A stretch of 34,670 nucleotides of DNA from Archaeoglobaceae archaeon (GCA_026988525.1 JALSLC010000032.1:1-34670); one strand, 5' to 3'. Positions 7,034 to 17,457 are shown, counted from the first letter of the stretch. Translations and numbers: made by a program. Notes: generated by a model from the letters alone, not told the origin.

Positions 7034-7481
7034 CTTCCTCACCTCTTAAAAAGAACCTTAATTTTTTATCTAAGTATGCAAACTGCCCTAATTTAGCATA
7101 CCCCGGACAAAATATTAGTGGTTTTTTACTTGCAACAATAAACCTATGTAAATGACCAAAAACCATTACTTTAACATCCAATTCTCTTGCAAGATAGTAT
7201 ATATCTGTAAAATCATCCATTAAAGGTTCATGTTTAACTCCAACATTCCAACCACTGACAACTTCAGGTAATGAAAAGTTGTCACAATTCCCTTTTACAG
7301 CAAGCAAGTTTATACCATTTTTATTACAAAATTCAGTTAGTGCATTGTAAACTTCGATTGTTTCAAAATCACCAGCGTGAACTAATAAATCAAATTGAAC
7401 GTAATTATTAACTTCACTAAGAAAATTATTCATTTCCCATTTTTTTCTAAGGTGTGTGTCAGATATTGCCAAGATTTTCAT
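7008..7481 (-). CDS. YfcE/MJ0936-type metallophosphoesterase
   Basis: 157 residues, a compact calcineurin-like phosphodiesterase. Metal-binding motifs are visible in order: SDTH (7-10), HAGDFE (about 35-40), KGNCD (about 63-67) and FGHLHRF. PGYAKLGQFAYLD follows near the end, where family members have a PGS-type strand. The family hydrolyses phosphodiesters with Mn/Ni/Fe; the natural substrate is usually unknown. The usual THGH segment is replaced by VKHEPLMDD, so one His ligand is displaced or altered. The gene overlaps both its upstream neighbour (the asparagine-synthetase-like gene, 23 nt) and the downstream moaE gene, so the three form one tightly packed minus-strand operon. Confidence 0.87.
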   Translation of the reverse strand: MKILAISDTHLRKKWEMNNFLSEVNNYVQFDLLVHAGDFETIEVYNALTEFCNKNGINLLAVKGNCDNFSLPEVVSGWNVGVKHEPLMDDFTDIYYLARELDVKVMVFGHLHRFIVASKKPLIFCPGYAKLGQFAYLDKKLRFFLRGEEVESEDFEY

Positions 7482-8646
7482 AGTATCTCTCTAATAAACC
7501 TTTAATCGTTAACCCCTCTTTTTTCGCGATTTTTTCAAGTATTGAAGCTGTCTTAGTAGAATACTGGACAGCTTTCTTTTGCCTATAAGCAACCTCTCTT
7601 GGCAAATATTTTTCAGCTAACTTTCTTAAAGCAAACTTTCTAATTATTTCTCCACCAACTTTTCTAACCTTATACTCTCCGGGGATTTTCATCACAGTTT
7701 TTATTATGTCCCACTGAAGATACGGAGTTAATAACTCAATTTCTACTTTATATGAAAGTTTTACATCTCTCTCAAGATTGTTGATTCCAAGTAATTCTAC
7801 ATCTTTCCTTAAAACCCAATATACTTCATCCTCCCTACAATCTTCATATTTTTTATATCCACCAAACAATTCATCGGCTCCCTGACCAAACATCATACTG
7901 CTAAATCCAAGTTCTTTTGCCTTTTTTAAAGAAAAGTATATTGGAATACCTATTGAAACATGGAATGGATTTGGTTCTTCAATAGCTTTTACAATCTCAG
8001 GAAGTGCATCTGCTACTTCTTTCTCCCCAAAACGATAAATATACAATTCCCTCCCCAATTCCTTGGCTGTTTGTTTTATATACTCTTCCTCTTTTTCATT
8101 TGCAGTAACGCTTACTAAGGGAACATCGTAAATCGCTGCAAGCAAAGAGCTATCAACACCTCCCGAAAATGATATGCAGTCTCCAGCTTTAAATTTTAAA
8201 AGTTTTTTCTCAATATATTCAAGATAATTTTCTATTTCACCCCAATCTTTTTTAGATGGATCTGGAGGGAAAACTTGATCAAATTCGTATTTTTTTGTTT
8301 CAACATACCCGTCATAGTAAATTTTAATAACTTCTCCCGGGTTTACAGATTTTGCCCCATCAACAAATGATTTGAAAGAAGAGAATTCTGTTTTAGAATA
8401 GTAAAGCGGTTTTCCACCTATAACATCTCTTGAAAGTAATATGTATTTTGGCTTAAATGCTATAACAGAGTAAAACCCCTTAAGTCTTAAAGGCATTTCA
8501 TCTGAAATTTTATCTACGGTTATTTCCTCTTCACTTGAATCATATATATGAGATTCTTTAGATTTGCATGGATATTTGGCTTTAGATACTATTTTTTTCC
8601 TATTTCCTTCAAACATTAATGCTGCATAGAGCATAGTTTTACTCAT
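7459..8646 (-). CDS. Asparagine-synthetase-like ATP-PPi synthetase lacking the glutaminase cysteine
   Basis: 395 residues. An N-terminal Ntn-hydrolase-like domain (about 1-125) keeps the structural signature SRDVIGGKPLYYS but begins MSKTMLYAALMF, with no Cys at position 2 or nearby. Cleavage of glutamine through an N-terminal cysteine is therefore not possible as in AsnB. The synthetase domain has an intact PP-loop SGGVDSS (161-167) and the FGQGADELFGGY segment conserved in AsnB, followed by LTPYLQWDII and YLPREVAYRQKKAVQYS. It should activate a carboxylate (aspartate or another substrate) as an adenylate and use free ammonia or another amine. The protein is shorter than typical AsnB (about 500-550 residues). 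ATG 8646 is the start; ATG 8634 is an alternative. First gene of an operon with a phosphoesterase and moaE. Confidence 0.85.
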   Translation of the reverse strand: MSKTMLYAALMFEGNRKKIVSKAKYPCKSKESHIYDSSEEEITVDKISDEMPLRLKGFYSVIAFKPKYILLSRDVIGGKPLYYSKTEFSSFKSFVDGAKSVNPGEVIKIYYDGYVETKKYEFDQVFPPDPSKKDWGEIENYLEYIEKKLLKFKAGDCISFSGGVDSSLLAAIYDVPLVSVTANEKEEEYIKQTAKELGRELYIYRFGEKEVADALPEIVKAIEEPNPFHVSIGIPIYFSLKKAKELGFSSMMFGQGADELFGGYKKYEDCREDEVYWVLRKDVELLGINNLERDVKLSYKVEIELLTPYLQWDIIKTVMKIPGEYKVRKVGGEIIRKFALRKLAEKYLPREVAYRQKKAVQYSTKTASILEKIAKKEGLTIKGLLERYYENLGNI

Positions 8647-12335: not shown

Positions 12336-13475
12336 TTACTTTCTCATCAATCCGAGTAAAGCAGCGAGACCTATGAGATGGTTTTTAGATAACGTACCAT
12401 CTGCCACCTCTTTTAATGCCTTTTTAGCATTGAAAGCTATACCTAAACCAGCATTTTTTATCATTATTTTGTCGTTTGCTCCATCTCCAACAGCAACTAT
12501 ATTTTCTTTTTTTATTCCCTCTTTTTTAGCCAGCTCTTCGATTATTTTTGCTTTCTCTTCTGCATCAATTATTTTACCTTTTATTCTCCCAGTTAATTTG
12601 CCATTTTTTATTTCCAGTTCGTTTCCGTATGCGTAATCAAGTCCAAGCTCTTCTTTAAGTTTGTTTGTAAAATATGTAAAACCTCCACTAACAAGAGCTA
12701 CTTTGTATCCAGACTCTTTTAAACTTTTTATTAACTCTTTCGCTCCCTCAGTTAATTTTATCTCACTGTATATTTTTTCTAACACTTCTACTGGCAAACC
12801 CTCCAATAGTTTTACTCTTTCCTTTAGAGCCTCTTTAAACTCTATTTCACCTCTCATGGCTTTATCTGTTAGCTCTTTCACTTCCTTTTCAACACCCGCA
12901 ACTTTTGCAAGTTCATTTATTACTTCAGCATCAATTAAGGTTGAATCCATATCAAAAACGATCAATCGCTTGTTTTTCTTGAAAATTTCGTAAGGCTGGA
13001 CAACTAAATCTAGTCCTTCATTTTCAATTTCCTCTTTCAACCTCTTTTTCAGTAATTCCTCATTTTCACTCAAATCTATCAAAAATTCTATAGTTATAAG
13101 TTTATCTCTTGCAATTAAACTCATTTTTTCTATATTTATCCCAAGCTGATATAGTATTAAGGTTATAGAATGCACTAATCCAACTCTATCTTCTCCAATA
13201 ACTGTTAAAACGTACAAATTCTTTTCTTTTCTCTTCTTTTCTTCTAAAATTGTATAATCTATTTTTACATCTATTTTTTTCTCTATATCTTTAAGCTCCT
13301 TGAAGACATTACCATTAAAACTTTCCTTTTCGGCAACTAAAAACATTATAAAAAAGTCGTGAACAACGTTTTGCTCTATATCTATGATGTTTAATCCATG
13401 CTTTGCTAAAATTCCGGAGACTTCACATATTATACCGGGTTTGTCTTTTCCATATACTATTACTCCTACTTTCAA
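12336..13475 (-). CDS. serB: Phosphoserine phosphatase with two N-terminal ACT domains
   Basis: 379 residues. Two ACT domains (about 1-75, VIVYGKDKPGIICEVSGILA; and 86-160, VLTVIGEDRVGLVHSITLIL) precede a HAD phosphatase. The phosphatase has the nucleophile motif DMDST (175-179), VSGGF (262-266) and GDGANDKIM (330-338). The SerB-specific cap region contains KAMRGEIEFKEALKERVKLL. The enzyme makes serine from phosphoserine, and the ACT domains probably sense serine or another amino acid. Start TTG 13475 lies six bases after GGTGA and overlaps the TGA of the alpha-mannosidase gene (13472-13474), so translation is coupled. It is the third gene of a minus-strand operon after glycerate 2-kinase and the GH38 enzyme, which ties it to glycerate/phosphoglycerate metabolism. 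Confidence 0.94.
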   Translation of the reverse strand: MKVGVIVYGKDKPGIICEVSGILAKHGLNIIDIEQNVVHDFFIMFLVAEKESFNGNVFKELKDIEKKIDVKIDYTILEEKKRKEKNLYVLTVIGEDRVGLVHSITLILYQLGINIEKMSLIARDKLITIEFLIDLSENEELLKKRLKEEIENEGLDLVVQPYEIFKKNKRLIVFDMDSTLIDAEVINELAKVAGVEKEVKELTDKAMRGEIEFKEALKERVKLLEGLPVEVLEKIYSEIKLTEGAKELIKSLKESGYKVALVSGGFTYFTNKLKEELGLDYAYGNELEIKNGKLTGRIKGKIIDAEEKAKIIEELAKKEGIKKENIVAVGDGANDKIMIKNAGLGIAFNAKKALKEVADGTLSKNHLIGLAALLGLMRK

Positions 13476-16030
13476 CTTTTATCACCTTTCAACTTCAGTT
13501 TAATTGTTACTATCTCAAATCCATTGATGTCAAACTCCACTTTATTTTTTTCAACTTTAAAGTCTCTTCCTTCTATTTCATCTTCTATCAAATTAACTTC
13601 TTTTACACTTTCAATTTCTCTGAAAAATTCTATTTTTGCCTTAGTTTTTTTGCCTTCAGCTTCATAAACTCTGACAATTACTTCTCCATCTTCACTACCA
13701 GCTTTAAATGCAGTCTGTATAACATTGTCTGGTTTTACTTTAACAAAGCTAAAACGCTCTGGTAACTTCTTATCTGTATCAATCTGAATAGAAATCAGCG
13801 GATAGTTGAATTCGTATCCAACTTTATATGCTTTTGCACTTTTCCAGTCTCCATCGTGGGGATAAGCAGAATAATAAAATTCGTACTTTTTGAGTTCCAT
13901 TGCGTCTGGTACTGGTATTACTGGCCCCTCCTTTCCGTGAGATAGCAAATCTACACTTCTAAGTAACGTTATGTATATACAGTTATCTCTAACTTCGTTT
14001 TCTGGATTTCCCCTATTGATTATTGTTAAACCTTTTTTACCATCACTGTAATCAATCCATCTCAAAGATGGGTAAACACCAGATGGTTTTTCAACCCAAT
14101 CTTCCGGATTTAAGTAGTATGTGTTAGTTCTTCTATTTATGGCTCCGAATTGTGTTTCACACGTATAGTAATCTTTTAGTATATTAGTCCTAAATCTTGT
14201 TCTAATCCTTGTTCTCGGATGTCTGTTGTTTATTGTAGTAACGAAATCTATTCTTGGCAGATCTCTATAAATTATGATTTTCTTTTCAATTGTTATGTAA
14301 TTATGCCTCCAAAAAACAGGTTTCCATTTATCAGTCAATCTATATGGCCATATTAATGAATAGTAGCCAGTAGTTACATTAATTATAAATCTGAGTGGTG
14401 TTCTCTTTACACTTATATTTTCCACATCAAACCTACCAAATCTAATTCCTTCCCCATTCTCTGTGTGTACTGGGGTATCTATGTCTTCTATATGGTGGTA
14501 GAGATTTCCAGCTTCACTCTCTATAACTATTTCGTTACCCTCAACGAATATCTCTTCTCCATCTCTAAATACCATTATTAGTCCATTTTCTGGCGAGTAG
14601 TGTACATTGAAGAATTTATTAGTTACAACATTCGACTCAACTTTTAATTTGTCAGTATCTGTGGGCTCATGTTCAATTATTTTGTAAGTAGCAAATCCAA
14701 GAGGTGGTACTTTCGCCACAAAACCAATTTTTGCATACCTAATACTTCCATCATAATATCTGCTCTCTTTTATCACTTCTACTTTTCTTTCTTCTTTCCC
14801 ACATTTTACACCTTTAATTTCTCTAACTTTTCCAACATTGAATGATAAATCCACTTCAACCCAATTTTCTACTTCCCATGATAGAGGATTAAACACTACA
14901 AAATCCCCATTTACGTTTCCTTCAATACATTCAACTATCTCTGAGAGCGTGTCTTTTAGTAAGTGAGGTAACTTTACTTTTAAAAAGTCAATATTGTACT
15001 TAACTTCTGTATATCCATCATCAGCACCAGTTCCGGGTATTACATCGTGAAAAGCATTAAACAAAATCTTTTTCCAACAATTTTCTATCTCTTCCTCATG
15101 CTTGATATTACATAGAAGGTAATTCACAGCATCAAACTTTTCGAGAGTTAGCAATTTGCATTCTAAATCTCTTTGATTTAATTTTATCCAAATTCTGCTT
15201 GAAGCTGTATCTGGAAAAACTGGTGAGTATTTCCCACAGTACATTTCTCCCTTCCTAACTGGCAGTTTTTCAGCATACTTTTCAACTTCTTTGAAAAATT
15301 CGATTGGAGTAGCTATTTTCATTTCTGAATCTTCGTGTGTTTCATTCCACTTCTTTACAGCATCAATAACTTCCTCCTGAGGTGGTGTTGAACCACTACC
15401 AGATGGCATAAGTATATGCTTTCCAAAGGCACACTCTTTCAAAGTTTTGTAACTTTCTTCAAACCTACTTATGTATAAACCAGCTCTGTATCCAAGAGGA
15501 AAACTATGTGCAATTATTCTCGTGCCATCTAATCCTTCCCAAAGAAATTCTGAAGGAGCTTTCTCGTAGTATCCTCTTCTAAACGCCACATATTTATATC
15601 CACTTTTTTTGTATATTTGAGGCAATTGGGCATTTAGACCGAAACCGTCAGCCTGCCACATTACTACAGCTTCAAAACCAAATTTTTCTCTTAAATATCT
15701 CTTTCCGACCAGTATTTCTCTTATTAACGTTTCTTCCTGAGGTAACATTGTATCTGGCATTAAGTATTCTCCATCGGCTATCTCGATTCTACCCTCTTTA
15801 ACATACTTTTTTATTTTCTCGAAAAGTTCAGGGTATCTGTTCTCTATTTCTTCAAGCAAGAATACTTGTTCTATTAAGAACTTGTATTCGTCTCTCCTCT
15901 CCATTATCTCTATAACTTTTTTTAGAATAAAATCTATATTTATATAAAAGTAATCTTCTTTTGTAAAAACCCATACAGCGTCATAGTGTGTATGTGGCAC
16001 TACATAGACTACGTATTTTTCATTCATCAT
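13472..16030 (-). CDS. Glycoside hydrolase family 38 alpha-mannosidase
   Basis: 852 residues, intracellular (no signal peptide). The N-terminal catalytic domain has the zinc motif VPHTHYDAVW (11-20; His15 and Asp17 as ligands), the nucleophile Asp128 in MWQADGFG and the fourth zinc ligand His328 in NAFHDVIPGTG. The middle and C-terminal beta-sandwich domains follow normally (for example RIDFVTTINNRHPRTR). GH38 enzymes are retaining alpha-mannosidases; bacterial MngB of this family hydrolyses (phospho)mannosylglycerate. The gene sits between glycerate 2-kinase (39 nt upstream) and serB (overlapping), so a mannosyl-glycerate substrate is an attractive inference, with protein N-glycans or polysaccharide as alternatives. 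ATG 16030 or 16027, after GGTGA, is the start. Confidence 0.92.
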   Translation of the reverse strand: MMNEKYVVYVVPHTHYDAVWVFTKEDYFYINIDFILKKVIEIMERRDEYKFLIEQVFLLEEIENRYPELFEKIKKYVKEGRIEIADGEYLMPDTMLPQEETLIREILVGKRYLREKFGFEAVVMWQADGFGLNAQLPQIYKKSGYKYVAFRRGYYEKAPSEFLWEGLDGTRIIAHSFPLGYRAGLYISRFEESYKTLKECAFGKHILMPSGSGSTPPQEEVIDAVKKWNETHEDSEMKIATPIEFFKEVEKYAEKLPVRKGEMYCGKYSPVFPDTASSRIWIKLNQRDLECKLLTLEKFDAVNYLLCNIKHEEEIENCWKKILFNAFHDVIPGTGADDGYTEVKYNIDFLKVKLPHLLKDTLSEIVECIEGNVNGDFVVFNPLSWEVENWVEVDLSFNVGKVREIKGVKCGKEERKVEVIKESRYYDGSIRYAKIGFVAKVPPLGFATYKIIEHEPTDTDKLKVESNVVTNKFFNVHYSPENGLIMVFRDGEEIFVEGNEIVIESEAGNLYHHIEDIDTPVHTENGEGIRFGRFDVENISVKRTPLRFIINVTTGYYSLIWPYRLTDKWKPVFWRHNYITIEKKIIIYRDLPRIDFVTTINNRHPRTRIRTRFRTNILKDYYTCETQFGAINRRTNTYYLNPEDWVEKPSGVYPSLRWIDYSDGKKGLTIINRGNPENEVRDNCIYITLLRSVDLLSHGKEGPVIPVPDAMELKKYEFYYSAYPHDGDWKSAKAYKVGYEFNYPLISIQIDTDKKLPERFSFVKVKPDNVIQTAFKAGSEDGEVIVRVYEAEGKKTKAKIEFFREIESVKEVNLIEDEIEGRDFKVEKNKVEFDINGFEIVTIKLKLKGDKS

Positions 16031-16069
16031 TTAAATCACCTTGTTTGTTGCATATAAACATTGAGTCTT

Positions 16070-17437
16070 TTATCTTATTACCAAAATAGTAATCGAATTA
16101 ACGTTAGTTTCAGTTGGTCCAGTGAAAACTAAAGCTTTTGCTGATTTTAAAGCTTTGTATGAGTTGTGTTTTATTAGCTCTTCCATTGGGTTTAGTCCCG
16201 CCTCTCTTATTCTATTCCACGTATCGTAGGATACTAATCCTCCAGCAGCATCAGTTGGGCCATCTGTACCGTCAGTATCTATGGATATTAAACATATGCT
16301 TTTGCAACCATCTAATTTTTTAGCAAATCCAAGTGCTAATTCTTGGTTTGGTCCACCTTTGGAATTTTCTGTATTCATAAGTGTAACAGTCGTTTCTCCT
16401 CCAGCAACTATTACGGCTGGTGGGTTAAAAGGCCTATTTTTATTTTTAACATCAATTGCAATTGACGCTAAAAAAATTCCAACGTCTTTTGATTCTCCTT
16501 CCATCTGTGAAGTTAAAATGTATGTATTGACTCCAAAATCTCTTGCTTTTTCTACTGCAAACTCACATACTTTTGATGAGCCACAAATTAGCTTGTTGAT
16601 AACGTTATTTAAATCCTCTTTTAAAGTCTCCTCTTCTTTTCCATCTCTACCTCTTTCAAGGTATTCTTTAACTGAATTAGGTACTTTATCCCATATTTTA
16701 TAACTCTTTAAAATTGATATAGCATCTTCGAATGTAGTTGAATCTTTTACACTTATTCCCGAAGCTATGGTTTCTAAATCATCTCCAACTACATCCGAAA
16801 TTATTAAAGAGAGGACTCTGCAAGTTGCTTTTTTTACGAATTTACCTCCCTTAATTGCAGATATGTGCTTTCTGACGGTGTTTATTTCCTGAATCCTGGC
16901 ACCACATTCGAGAAGTAACTTGTAAGTTTTTATTTTATCTTCGAGAGTAATACCATCTTCTGGCATAGCAAACAAAGAAGATCCCCCACCAGATATTAGT
17001 AGTATTAATAAATCATCTTTTTTTGCTTTTTCTAATATTTTCAGAGCTTTTTTTACACCAATAACTGAATTTTCATCAGGTACTGGATGTCCAGCTTCAA
17101 TAACTTCCAGATTGCCCAATTTTTTTGATTCAGCATACCCATACTTTGTTACTATAACTCCGGATACATCTGGAATTATTTTTGTTATTGCTTTAGCCAT
17201 AGGATATGCAGCTTTGCCAATTGCTACTACGTATGCTCTATCAAATTCAAGAATTTCTCCTGTTTTCAACTTTGCTTTTCTATTTTTTCCATTTTCAATA
17301 TTTAAAAAATCCAATACAAGTTTTTCTGGATTGGAACGCTTTATTACATGCTCTACTATTTCTATGGCCATTTTTCTAATCTCTCTTTCAGTTCCTTTGT
17401 AGCCATCAAGCAGTTCTTCAACATTTTTAACTATCAT
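16070..17437 (-). CDS. Glycerate 2-kinase, GckA/MOFRL family
   Basis: 455 residues, two-domain MOFRL-type glycerate kinase. Visible motifs: AIGKAAYPMAKAI (72-84), GHPVPDENS (116-124), the glycine-rich phosphate loop LISGGGSSLFAMP (147-159), VRKHISAIKGGK (about 193-204) and, in the MOFRL domain, VAGGETTVTL, KGGPNQELALGFA and DTDGTDGPTDAAGG. Archaeal members phosphorylate D-glycerate with ATP to give 2-phosphoglycerate, feeding it into glycolysis/gluconeogenesis. It is the first gene of the minus-strand operon with the GH38 alpha-mannosidase and serB. The promoter is probably the palindromic TATA at 17458-17471, about 27 nt from the ATG, so the message would be leaderless and share its promoter region with nurA. 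Confidence 0.93.
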   Translation of the reverse strand: MIVKNVEELLDGYKGTEREIRKMAIEIVEHVIKRSNPEKLVLDFLNIENGKNRKAKLKTGEILEFDRAYVVAIGKAAYPMAKAITKIIPDVSGVIVTKYGYAESKKLGNLEVIEAGHPVPDENSVIGVKKALKILEKAKKDDLLILLISGGGSSLFAMPEDGITLEDKIKTYKLLLECGARIQEINTVRKHISAIKGGKFVKKATCRVLSLIISDVVGDDLETIASGISVKDSTTFEDAISILKSYKIWDKVPNSVKEYLERGRDGKEEETLKEDLNNVINKLICGSSKVCEFAVEKARDFGVNTYILTSQMEGESKDVGIFLASIAIDVKNKNRPFNPPAVIVAGGETTVTLMNTENSKGGPNQELALGFAKKLDGCKSICLISIDTDGTDGPTDAAGGLVSYDTWNRIREAGLNPMEELIKHNSYKALKSAKALVFTGPTETNVNSITILVIR

Positions 17438-17457
17438 TAAATTTACTATGCCTAACC

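Follow-up and report, generated by a model that had tools for sequence, protein, structure and literature searches.

A GH38-family enzyme encoded by an Archaeoglobaceae archaeon (GCA_026988525.1) probably provides the degradative step of a mannosylglycerate (MG) cycle, with the neighboring glycerate kinase recovering the glycerate. Its gene lies in a window of 34,670 nucleotides, by which we mean the whole stretch of DNA that was analysed; it corresponds to contig C32, and the genome, at 1.43 Mb, is 99.8% complete. MG cleavage is very likely the role of this enzyme because its family co-occurs with the synthesis gene mpgS and is linked to it in operons across phyla. What we observe is gene order, co-occurrence, fold, a conserved −1 subsite and an absent acid/base residue; substrate, direction, products and regulation are what we infer.

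Three genes are packed together on the minus strand of the window. The first encodes a glycerate 2-kinase of the DUF4147/MOFRL type (GlyK, 16070–17437, 455 aa), and a 39-nt intergenic gap (16031–16069), which carries a GGTGAT ribosome-binding motif, separates it from the gene for the cytoplasmic, putatively MG-cleaving GH38 enzyme (13472–16030, 852 aa). The third encodes SerB, a phosphoserine phosphatase with two N-terminal ACT domains (12336–13475, 379 aa), whose ORF shares 4 nt with the end of the GH38 gene. An identical Shine–Dalgarno-like GGTGAT precedes both GH38 and SerB, which supports a TTG start for SerB. These ORFs, the gap and the overlap bear out the tight cluster described in the initial annotation. 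At the other end, the start codons of GlyK and the divergent NurA are just 10 bp apart (17437–17448), and the two genes may have overlapping promoters, or one NurA start may lie further in.

The initial annotation had reasoned that an absence of MG synthesis genes from all genomes carrying the GlyK–GH38 pair would refute MG recycling. We found MpgS in the window's own genome (G000:C33:50598-51716; TIGR02460, 525 bits against a cut-off of 351), directly followed by the gene for an MPGP-family phosphatase that exceeds the TIGR01486 subfamily cut-off (220 versus 165 bits) and scores below that of the TIGR02461 equivalog (208 versus 244 bits). GH38 orthologues, 60–82% identical over their full length, occur in 14 of 57 Archaeoglobales genomes; MpgS is present in all 14 and in 2 of the 43 genomes without GH38 (Fisher p 1.6e-11). 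Among 393 genomes of the phylum, MpgS accompanies GH38 in 43 of 44 cases, and 4 further genomes have MpgS without GH38, with all such genome counts being phylogenetically clustered rather than independent events. At the genus level, the 4 Archaeoglobales genera with GH38 all fall among the 5 of 15 that have MpgS (hypergeometric about 0.004). One genome with MpgS and no GH38 (G042) likely reflects an assembly gap, because its contig is cut inside mpgP, where that of G044 continues towards SerB–GH38–GlyK, and because GlyK, GH38 and SerB are all missing together. It is the presence of MpgS that points to MG accumulation in the organisms with GH38.

Gene order within Archaeoglobales ties the two sets of genes together. 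In five genomes of one genus (g12), the order is mpgS–mpgP–GH38–glycerate kinase, with gaps of 0–15 nt or small overlaps. A second genus (g4) has an mpgS–mpgP–GH38 operon (three genomes), and a third (g5) has mpgS–mpgP–GH38–manC (two genomes), where manC encodes a mannose-1-phosphate guanylyltransferase/isomerase. The window's genus has a split arrangement, with GlyK–GH38–SerB apart from mpgS–mpgP; in G044, both groups lie on one contig, about 8 kb apart. Separately, the complete genome G020 holds two mpgS genes that are 73% identical (C1:853827-854945 and 1167783-1168901), only one of them in an mpgS–mpgP–GH38–manC operon.

When we used the GH38 alignment to scan 84,980 species genomes, we retrieved 79 loci from ANME-1/Methanophagales, Aenigmatarchaeota, Nanohaloarchaeota, Woesearchaeota, Nitrososphaerales, Nitrosopumilus, Dehalococcoidia, WOR-3 and CPR bacteria. 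MpgS or MpgP is encoded within 200 nt of GH38 in 34 of the 79 and somewhere in the fetched stretch in 43; neither was found, with at least 3 kb available upstream, in 24. The linkage of mpg genes to GH38 recurs in ANME-1, DPANN archaea, Dehalococcoidia, WOR-3, CPR bacteria and Nitrososphaerales, some of the short-contig MAG assignments being possibly misbinned. In Dehalococcoidia, two loci (L117 and L118) have a bifunctional MpgS/MpgP gene (1001 versus 762 bits) convergent with GH38, and in two others (L126, on a complete chromosome, and L129) a glycerate kinase adjoins GH38; because the arrangement differs, we take this linkage to be independent. An ANME-1 locus (L108) has GH38–GlyK. Among 33 genomes with loci mostly outside Archaeoglobales and ANME-1, 15 have MpgS, 12 have only an adjacent mpgP and 6 have neither. 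The recycling module proposed as archaeal is not specifically archaeal; GH38–mpg linkage is also found in bacteria.

The glycerate branch of the earlier model also stands. GlyK matches PF13660 (DUF4147, 265 bits) and PF05161 (MOFRL, 119 bits) above cut-off; its closest solved structure is P. horikoshii PH0495 (PDB 1x3l, 444 bits), followed by a putative glycerate kinase (PDB 2b8n, 314 bits), and it scores below the cut-offs of two NCBIfam glycerate 2-kinase equivalogs, NF041176 (293/550 bits) and NF040791 (206/670 bits), which are lineage-specific models. Across the 57 Archaeoglobales genomes, GlyK is present in 11 of 14 with GH38 and in 4 of 43 without (Fisher p 2e-6); counting against the model, a glycerate kinase of the window's type was not found in the GH38 genomes G016 and G018 (both incomplete) or G020. 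GlyK sits in mpgS operons, and in Archaeoglobales, Dehalococcoidia and ANME-1 it is a direct neighbor of GH38.

SerB, although clearly assigned (TIGR00338, 292 bits against a cut-off of 144), behaves differently. It is present in 50 of 57 Archaeoglobales genomes, irrespective of GH38 (12 of 14 with, 38 of 43 without; Fisher p = 1.0), and adjoins GH38 in two genomes of the window's genus only. We therefore rejected SerB as a pathway member; it is probably a housekeeping passenger, co-transcribed as a neighbor. The link to serine synthesis that the initial annotation drew is accordingly a part of its recycling model that did not hold, whereas recycling by GH38 and glycerate kinase is strongly supported by MpgS co-occurrence, shared operons and recurrence across phyla. 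One could still read the flanking of GH38 by GlyK and SerB in the window as a serine and glycerate operon in which GH38 is a bystander, but that is exceedingly improbable given mpgS operons in which GlyK comes after GH38 and SerB is missing, as well as the independence of SerB from GH38.

The enzyme itself is a GH38 protein by sequence and fold. It matches PF01074 (Glyco_hydro_38N, 198 bits), PF09261, PF07748 and PF17677 above cut-off, covering N, middle and C domains, and its AF2 model (pLDDT 88.7, pTM 0.91) resembles SpGH38 and EfGH38 in Foldseek comparisons (TM 0.84–0.85). The modelled catalytic barrel starts at residue 6, leaving no room for a signal peptide, in agreement with the initial annotation, which had noted none. 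Also confirmed is the full set of zinc ligands with the nucleophile: all 79 family sequences have, without exception, H15, D17, D128 (which doubles as the nucleophile) and H328. The same holds in these 79 for W20, F130, R152, Y181 and D329 of the −1 subsite, assigned from SpGH38 and Ams1 (PMC2815779 and PMC7609781). R151 is invariant and unique to the window's family, and R182 is invariant in the family, whereas MngB has Ala and the paralogues have Lys at that position. The only NCBIfam match is the MG hydrolase model NF007331, over the full length at 309 bits (equivalog cut-off 1138), with relatives at 247–331 bits. In a tree of 85 GH38 sequences, MngB and long paralogues fall outside the family, and mpg-linked members sit on branches throughout it.

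The closest solved folds, those of S. pyogenes SpGH38 and fungal Ams1, share this −1 subsite and belong to enzymes that trim glycans, which raises the question of a general α-mannosidase for turnover of N-glycans, polysaccharides or dolichol-linked oligosaccharides. This is quite unlikely: in our alignment, the window enzyme does not keep D763/W764 of the SpGH38 +1 subsite, relatives own a separate GH38 paralogue with a normal GDGG loop, and the linkage and co-occurrence with mpgS extend across phyla. On the mpg linkage, we rejected an N-glycan turnover role. The paralogue, of about 1,010–1,020 aa and 28–30% identity, is found in four loci of the window's genus (L016, L018, L019 and L020); it has the normal acid/base loop and is absent from the window's genome.

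A feature that the initial annotation did not mention is the loss of the GH38 acid/base Asp (D232 in SpGH38, D493 in Ams1, D341 in GMII). In the window enzyme, the positions of SpGH38 D232 and Ams1 D493 are taken by G213 and S212 in a loop, S210-G211-S212-G213, whose codons lie at 15392–15403 on the minus strand. G211, S212 and G213 are invariant in all 79 members, where the loop reads SGSG or, rarely, CGSG or AGSG, whereas the control loops of MngB, SpGH38, EfGH38, Ams1 and other GH38s, including the paralogues, read NGHD, NGCD, NGVD, NGYE or GDGG; seven other GH38 types retain a carboxylate (Asp or Glu). Among the loop residues of the 79 sequences, we found no replacement carboxylate common to all members. 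E220 was considered and rejected because some members, namely L117/L118, L085 and L108, have R, N or K in its place. Two invariant glutamates unique to the family, E54 and E83, lie near barrel strand ends in the AF2 model; if the acid has been relocated, these are the likeliest residues to provide it. Because the acid/base carboxylate is missing family-wide, the hydrolysis that the initial annotation assumed may instead be phosphorolysis, or may depend on a relocated acid.

One interpretation of this loss is that GH38 no longer catalyzes and instead binds MG as a sensor or regulator. We consider this very unlikely, as the zinc ligands, nucleophile and −1 subsite are strictly conserved over several phyla and a glycerate kinase is linked to the gene. 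Another is that the enzyme acts on mannosyl-3-phosphoglycerate, or on some other phosphorylated MG, with the substrate's own phosphate as proton donor; the enzyme would then control the biosynthetic intermediate rather than the solute. MngB acts on phosphorylated MG, and the position of GH38 directly after mpgS–mpgP would fit as well; yet the product, 3-phosphoglycerate, would leave the recurrent glycerate kinase link without purpose, and mpgP is present in the same operons, so we regard this reading as improbable.

A more serious, if tentative, alternative keeps MG cleavage and differs in the acceptor. The enzyme may be an MG phosphorylase that converts MG and phosphate to α-mannose-1-phosphate and D-glycerate by retaining double displacement, with phosphate replacing the acid/base carboxylate. 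According to a review (PMC8950772), a missing carboxylate acid/base is the mark of retaining GH3 phosphorylases; the review also describes a GH84 hydrolase that became a phosphorylase through a single mutation of this kind, and the phosphorolysis of glucosylglycerate by E. coli YcjM. The criterion used for retaining glycoside phosphorylases, no carboxylate at the acid/base position, describes the window's family, with GSG there in 79 of 79 members against a carboxylate in the other GH38 types. R151 and R182 are candidate phosphate-binding residues, and some operons continue after GH38 with manC or a gene for a PMI-type cupin. Among nine ANME-1 genomes, eight lack a ROK kinase and none has an ADP-glucokinase; ROK kinases are mostly absent in ANME-1 and present in most Archaeoglobales tested, which is not decisive on mannokinase. 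Against phosphorolysis, E54 and E83 could serve as relocated acids, the window's own genome encodes a ROK-family protein, and the phosphate site is putative. Moreover, we know of no GH38 phosphorylase. We rate phosphorolysis slightly below hydrolysis with a relocated proton donor, a part that E54 or E83 could play.

In the MG cycle that we favor, MG would be made from GDP-mannose and 3-phosphoglycerate by MpgS and the MPGP-family phosphatase, whose genes lie in another part of the genome, and the cytoplasmic GH38 enzyme would split it once the solute is no longer needed. Zinc would hold the mannose while D128 attacks C1; with water as acceptor, the mannosyl unit would be released as mannose, and with phosphate, as α-mannose-1-phosphate. 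The released D-glycerate would be converted by the adjacent glycerate 2-kinase to 2-phosphoglycerate and so enter central metabolism.

One close comparison is E. coli MngB, the GH38 MG hydrolase of mngRAB, which shares the fold, a full-length alignment, the zinc ligands, the nucleophile and an MG-related role. The two are, however, only 24% identical over the full length, the acid/base position is Asp in MngB and Gly in the window's family, and MngB sits with a PTS importer whereas the window's family sits with MG synthesis genes. Judged by sequence, the window enzyme can at most resemble MngB in its action, and the two are not orthologues. SpGH38 and Ams1 likewise differ in having their own acid/base Asp (D232 and D493) and acting on glycans. 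Pyrococcus has the same two-step MpgS/MpgP synthesis, besides PH0495, and to our knowledge no GH38 degradation gene. The GH63 enzymes MgH (Thermus, Rubrobacter and Selaginella) and mycobacterial GgH also remove MG or glucosylglycerate inside the cell, but are inverting and have an unrelated (α/α)6 fold (PMC6608630). If phosphorolysis were the case, YcjM, a GH13_18 glucosylglycerate phosphorylase that is likewise retaining and releases sugar-1-phosphate and D-glycerate, would be the functional analogue, from another fold family and acting on glucose instead of mannose (PMC8950772).

MG is a major thermo- and osmoprotectant whose archaeal synthesis is well studied; MG synthesis genes have been reported in ANME-1 and Nitrosocosmicus, and in the open-access literature searched we found no described archaeal route for removing MG and no earlier description of this GH38 degradation gene. 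A single enzyme family now points to MG removal in Archaeoglobales, ANME-1 methanotrophs, ammonia-oxidising archaea, DPANN archaea, Dehalococcoidia and others, and Archaeoglobus profundus, with its GH38 gene (G015:C1:502615-505185) in an mpgS–mpgP–GH38 operon, offers a cultured test case. The missing acid/base yields a clear mechanistic prediction, namely a relocated-acid hydrolase or a new type of phosphorylase. A phosphorylase would be the first in GH38 and would let archaea as well as unrelated bacteria recycle this protectant and keep the energy of the glycosidic bond, with mannose-1-phosphate going straight to GDP-mannose, no mannokinase needed, and glycerate going to 2-phosphoglycerate via the linked kinase.

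Several of the loci outside Archaeoglobales have features of their own. Twelve, which speak against the MG cycle, have mpgP–GH38 in genomes where we found no MpgS (L075, L076, L077, L081, L082, L086, L090, L103, L122, L128, L132 and L135), their hosts being DPANN archaea, CPR bacteria and one Nitrososphaeraceae MAG; in L081, L090 and L103, a PMI-type cupin gene comes after mpgP–GH38. The small symbionts among these hosts may scavenge host mannosylglycerate or use another synthase. In a WOR-3 MAG (L078), mpgS–mpgP–GH38 is followed by a sugar-type ABC importer (12559–16521) of a binding protein, two permeases and a MalK-like ATPase, possibly a system for MG uptake. The ANME-1 locus L084 has two full GH38 copies on one contig (9980–12598 and 20185–22593), as does G144, and in these double-copy genomes just one copy adjoins mpgS–mpgP.

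Genes with possible amide chemistry also occur near the MG genes. In Dehalococcoidia and Nitrososphaerales, a carbon–nitrogen hydrolase of the nitrilase superfamily is convergent with and adjoins GH38 (L125:6233-6940 and L134:3750-4454 by Pfam; L135:4240-4962 and L136:10928-11650 by sequence likeness), a possible mannosylglyceramide amidase. Rhodothermus accumulates mannosylglyceramide (PMC1224877). In two genera, mpgS has a full asparagine-synthase-like gene as its divergent neighbor (L057:7864-10928 and L058:8962-12036), and an amidating step on mannosylglycerate is conceivable. The window itself encodes an asparagine-synthase-like protein of 395 aa with the N-terminus MSKTML (7459–8646, minus strand); it is without the N-terminal part of the glutaminase domain, including the catalytic Cys, and a similar short form occurs in G041.
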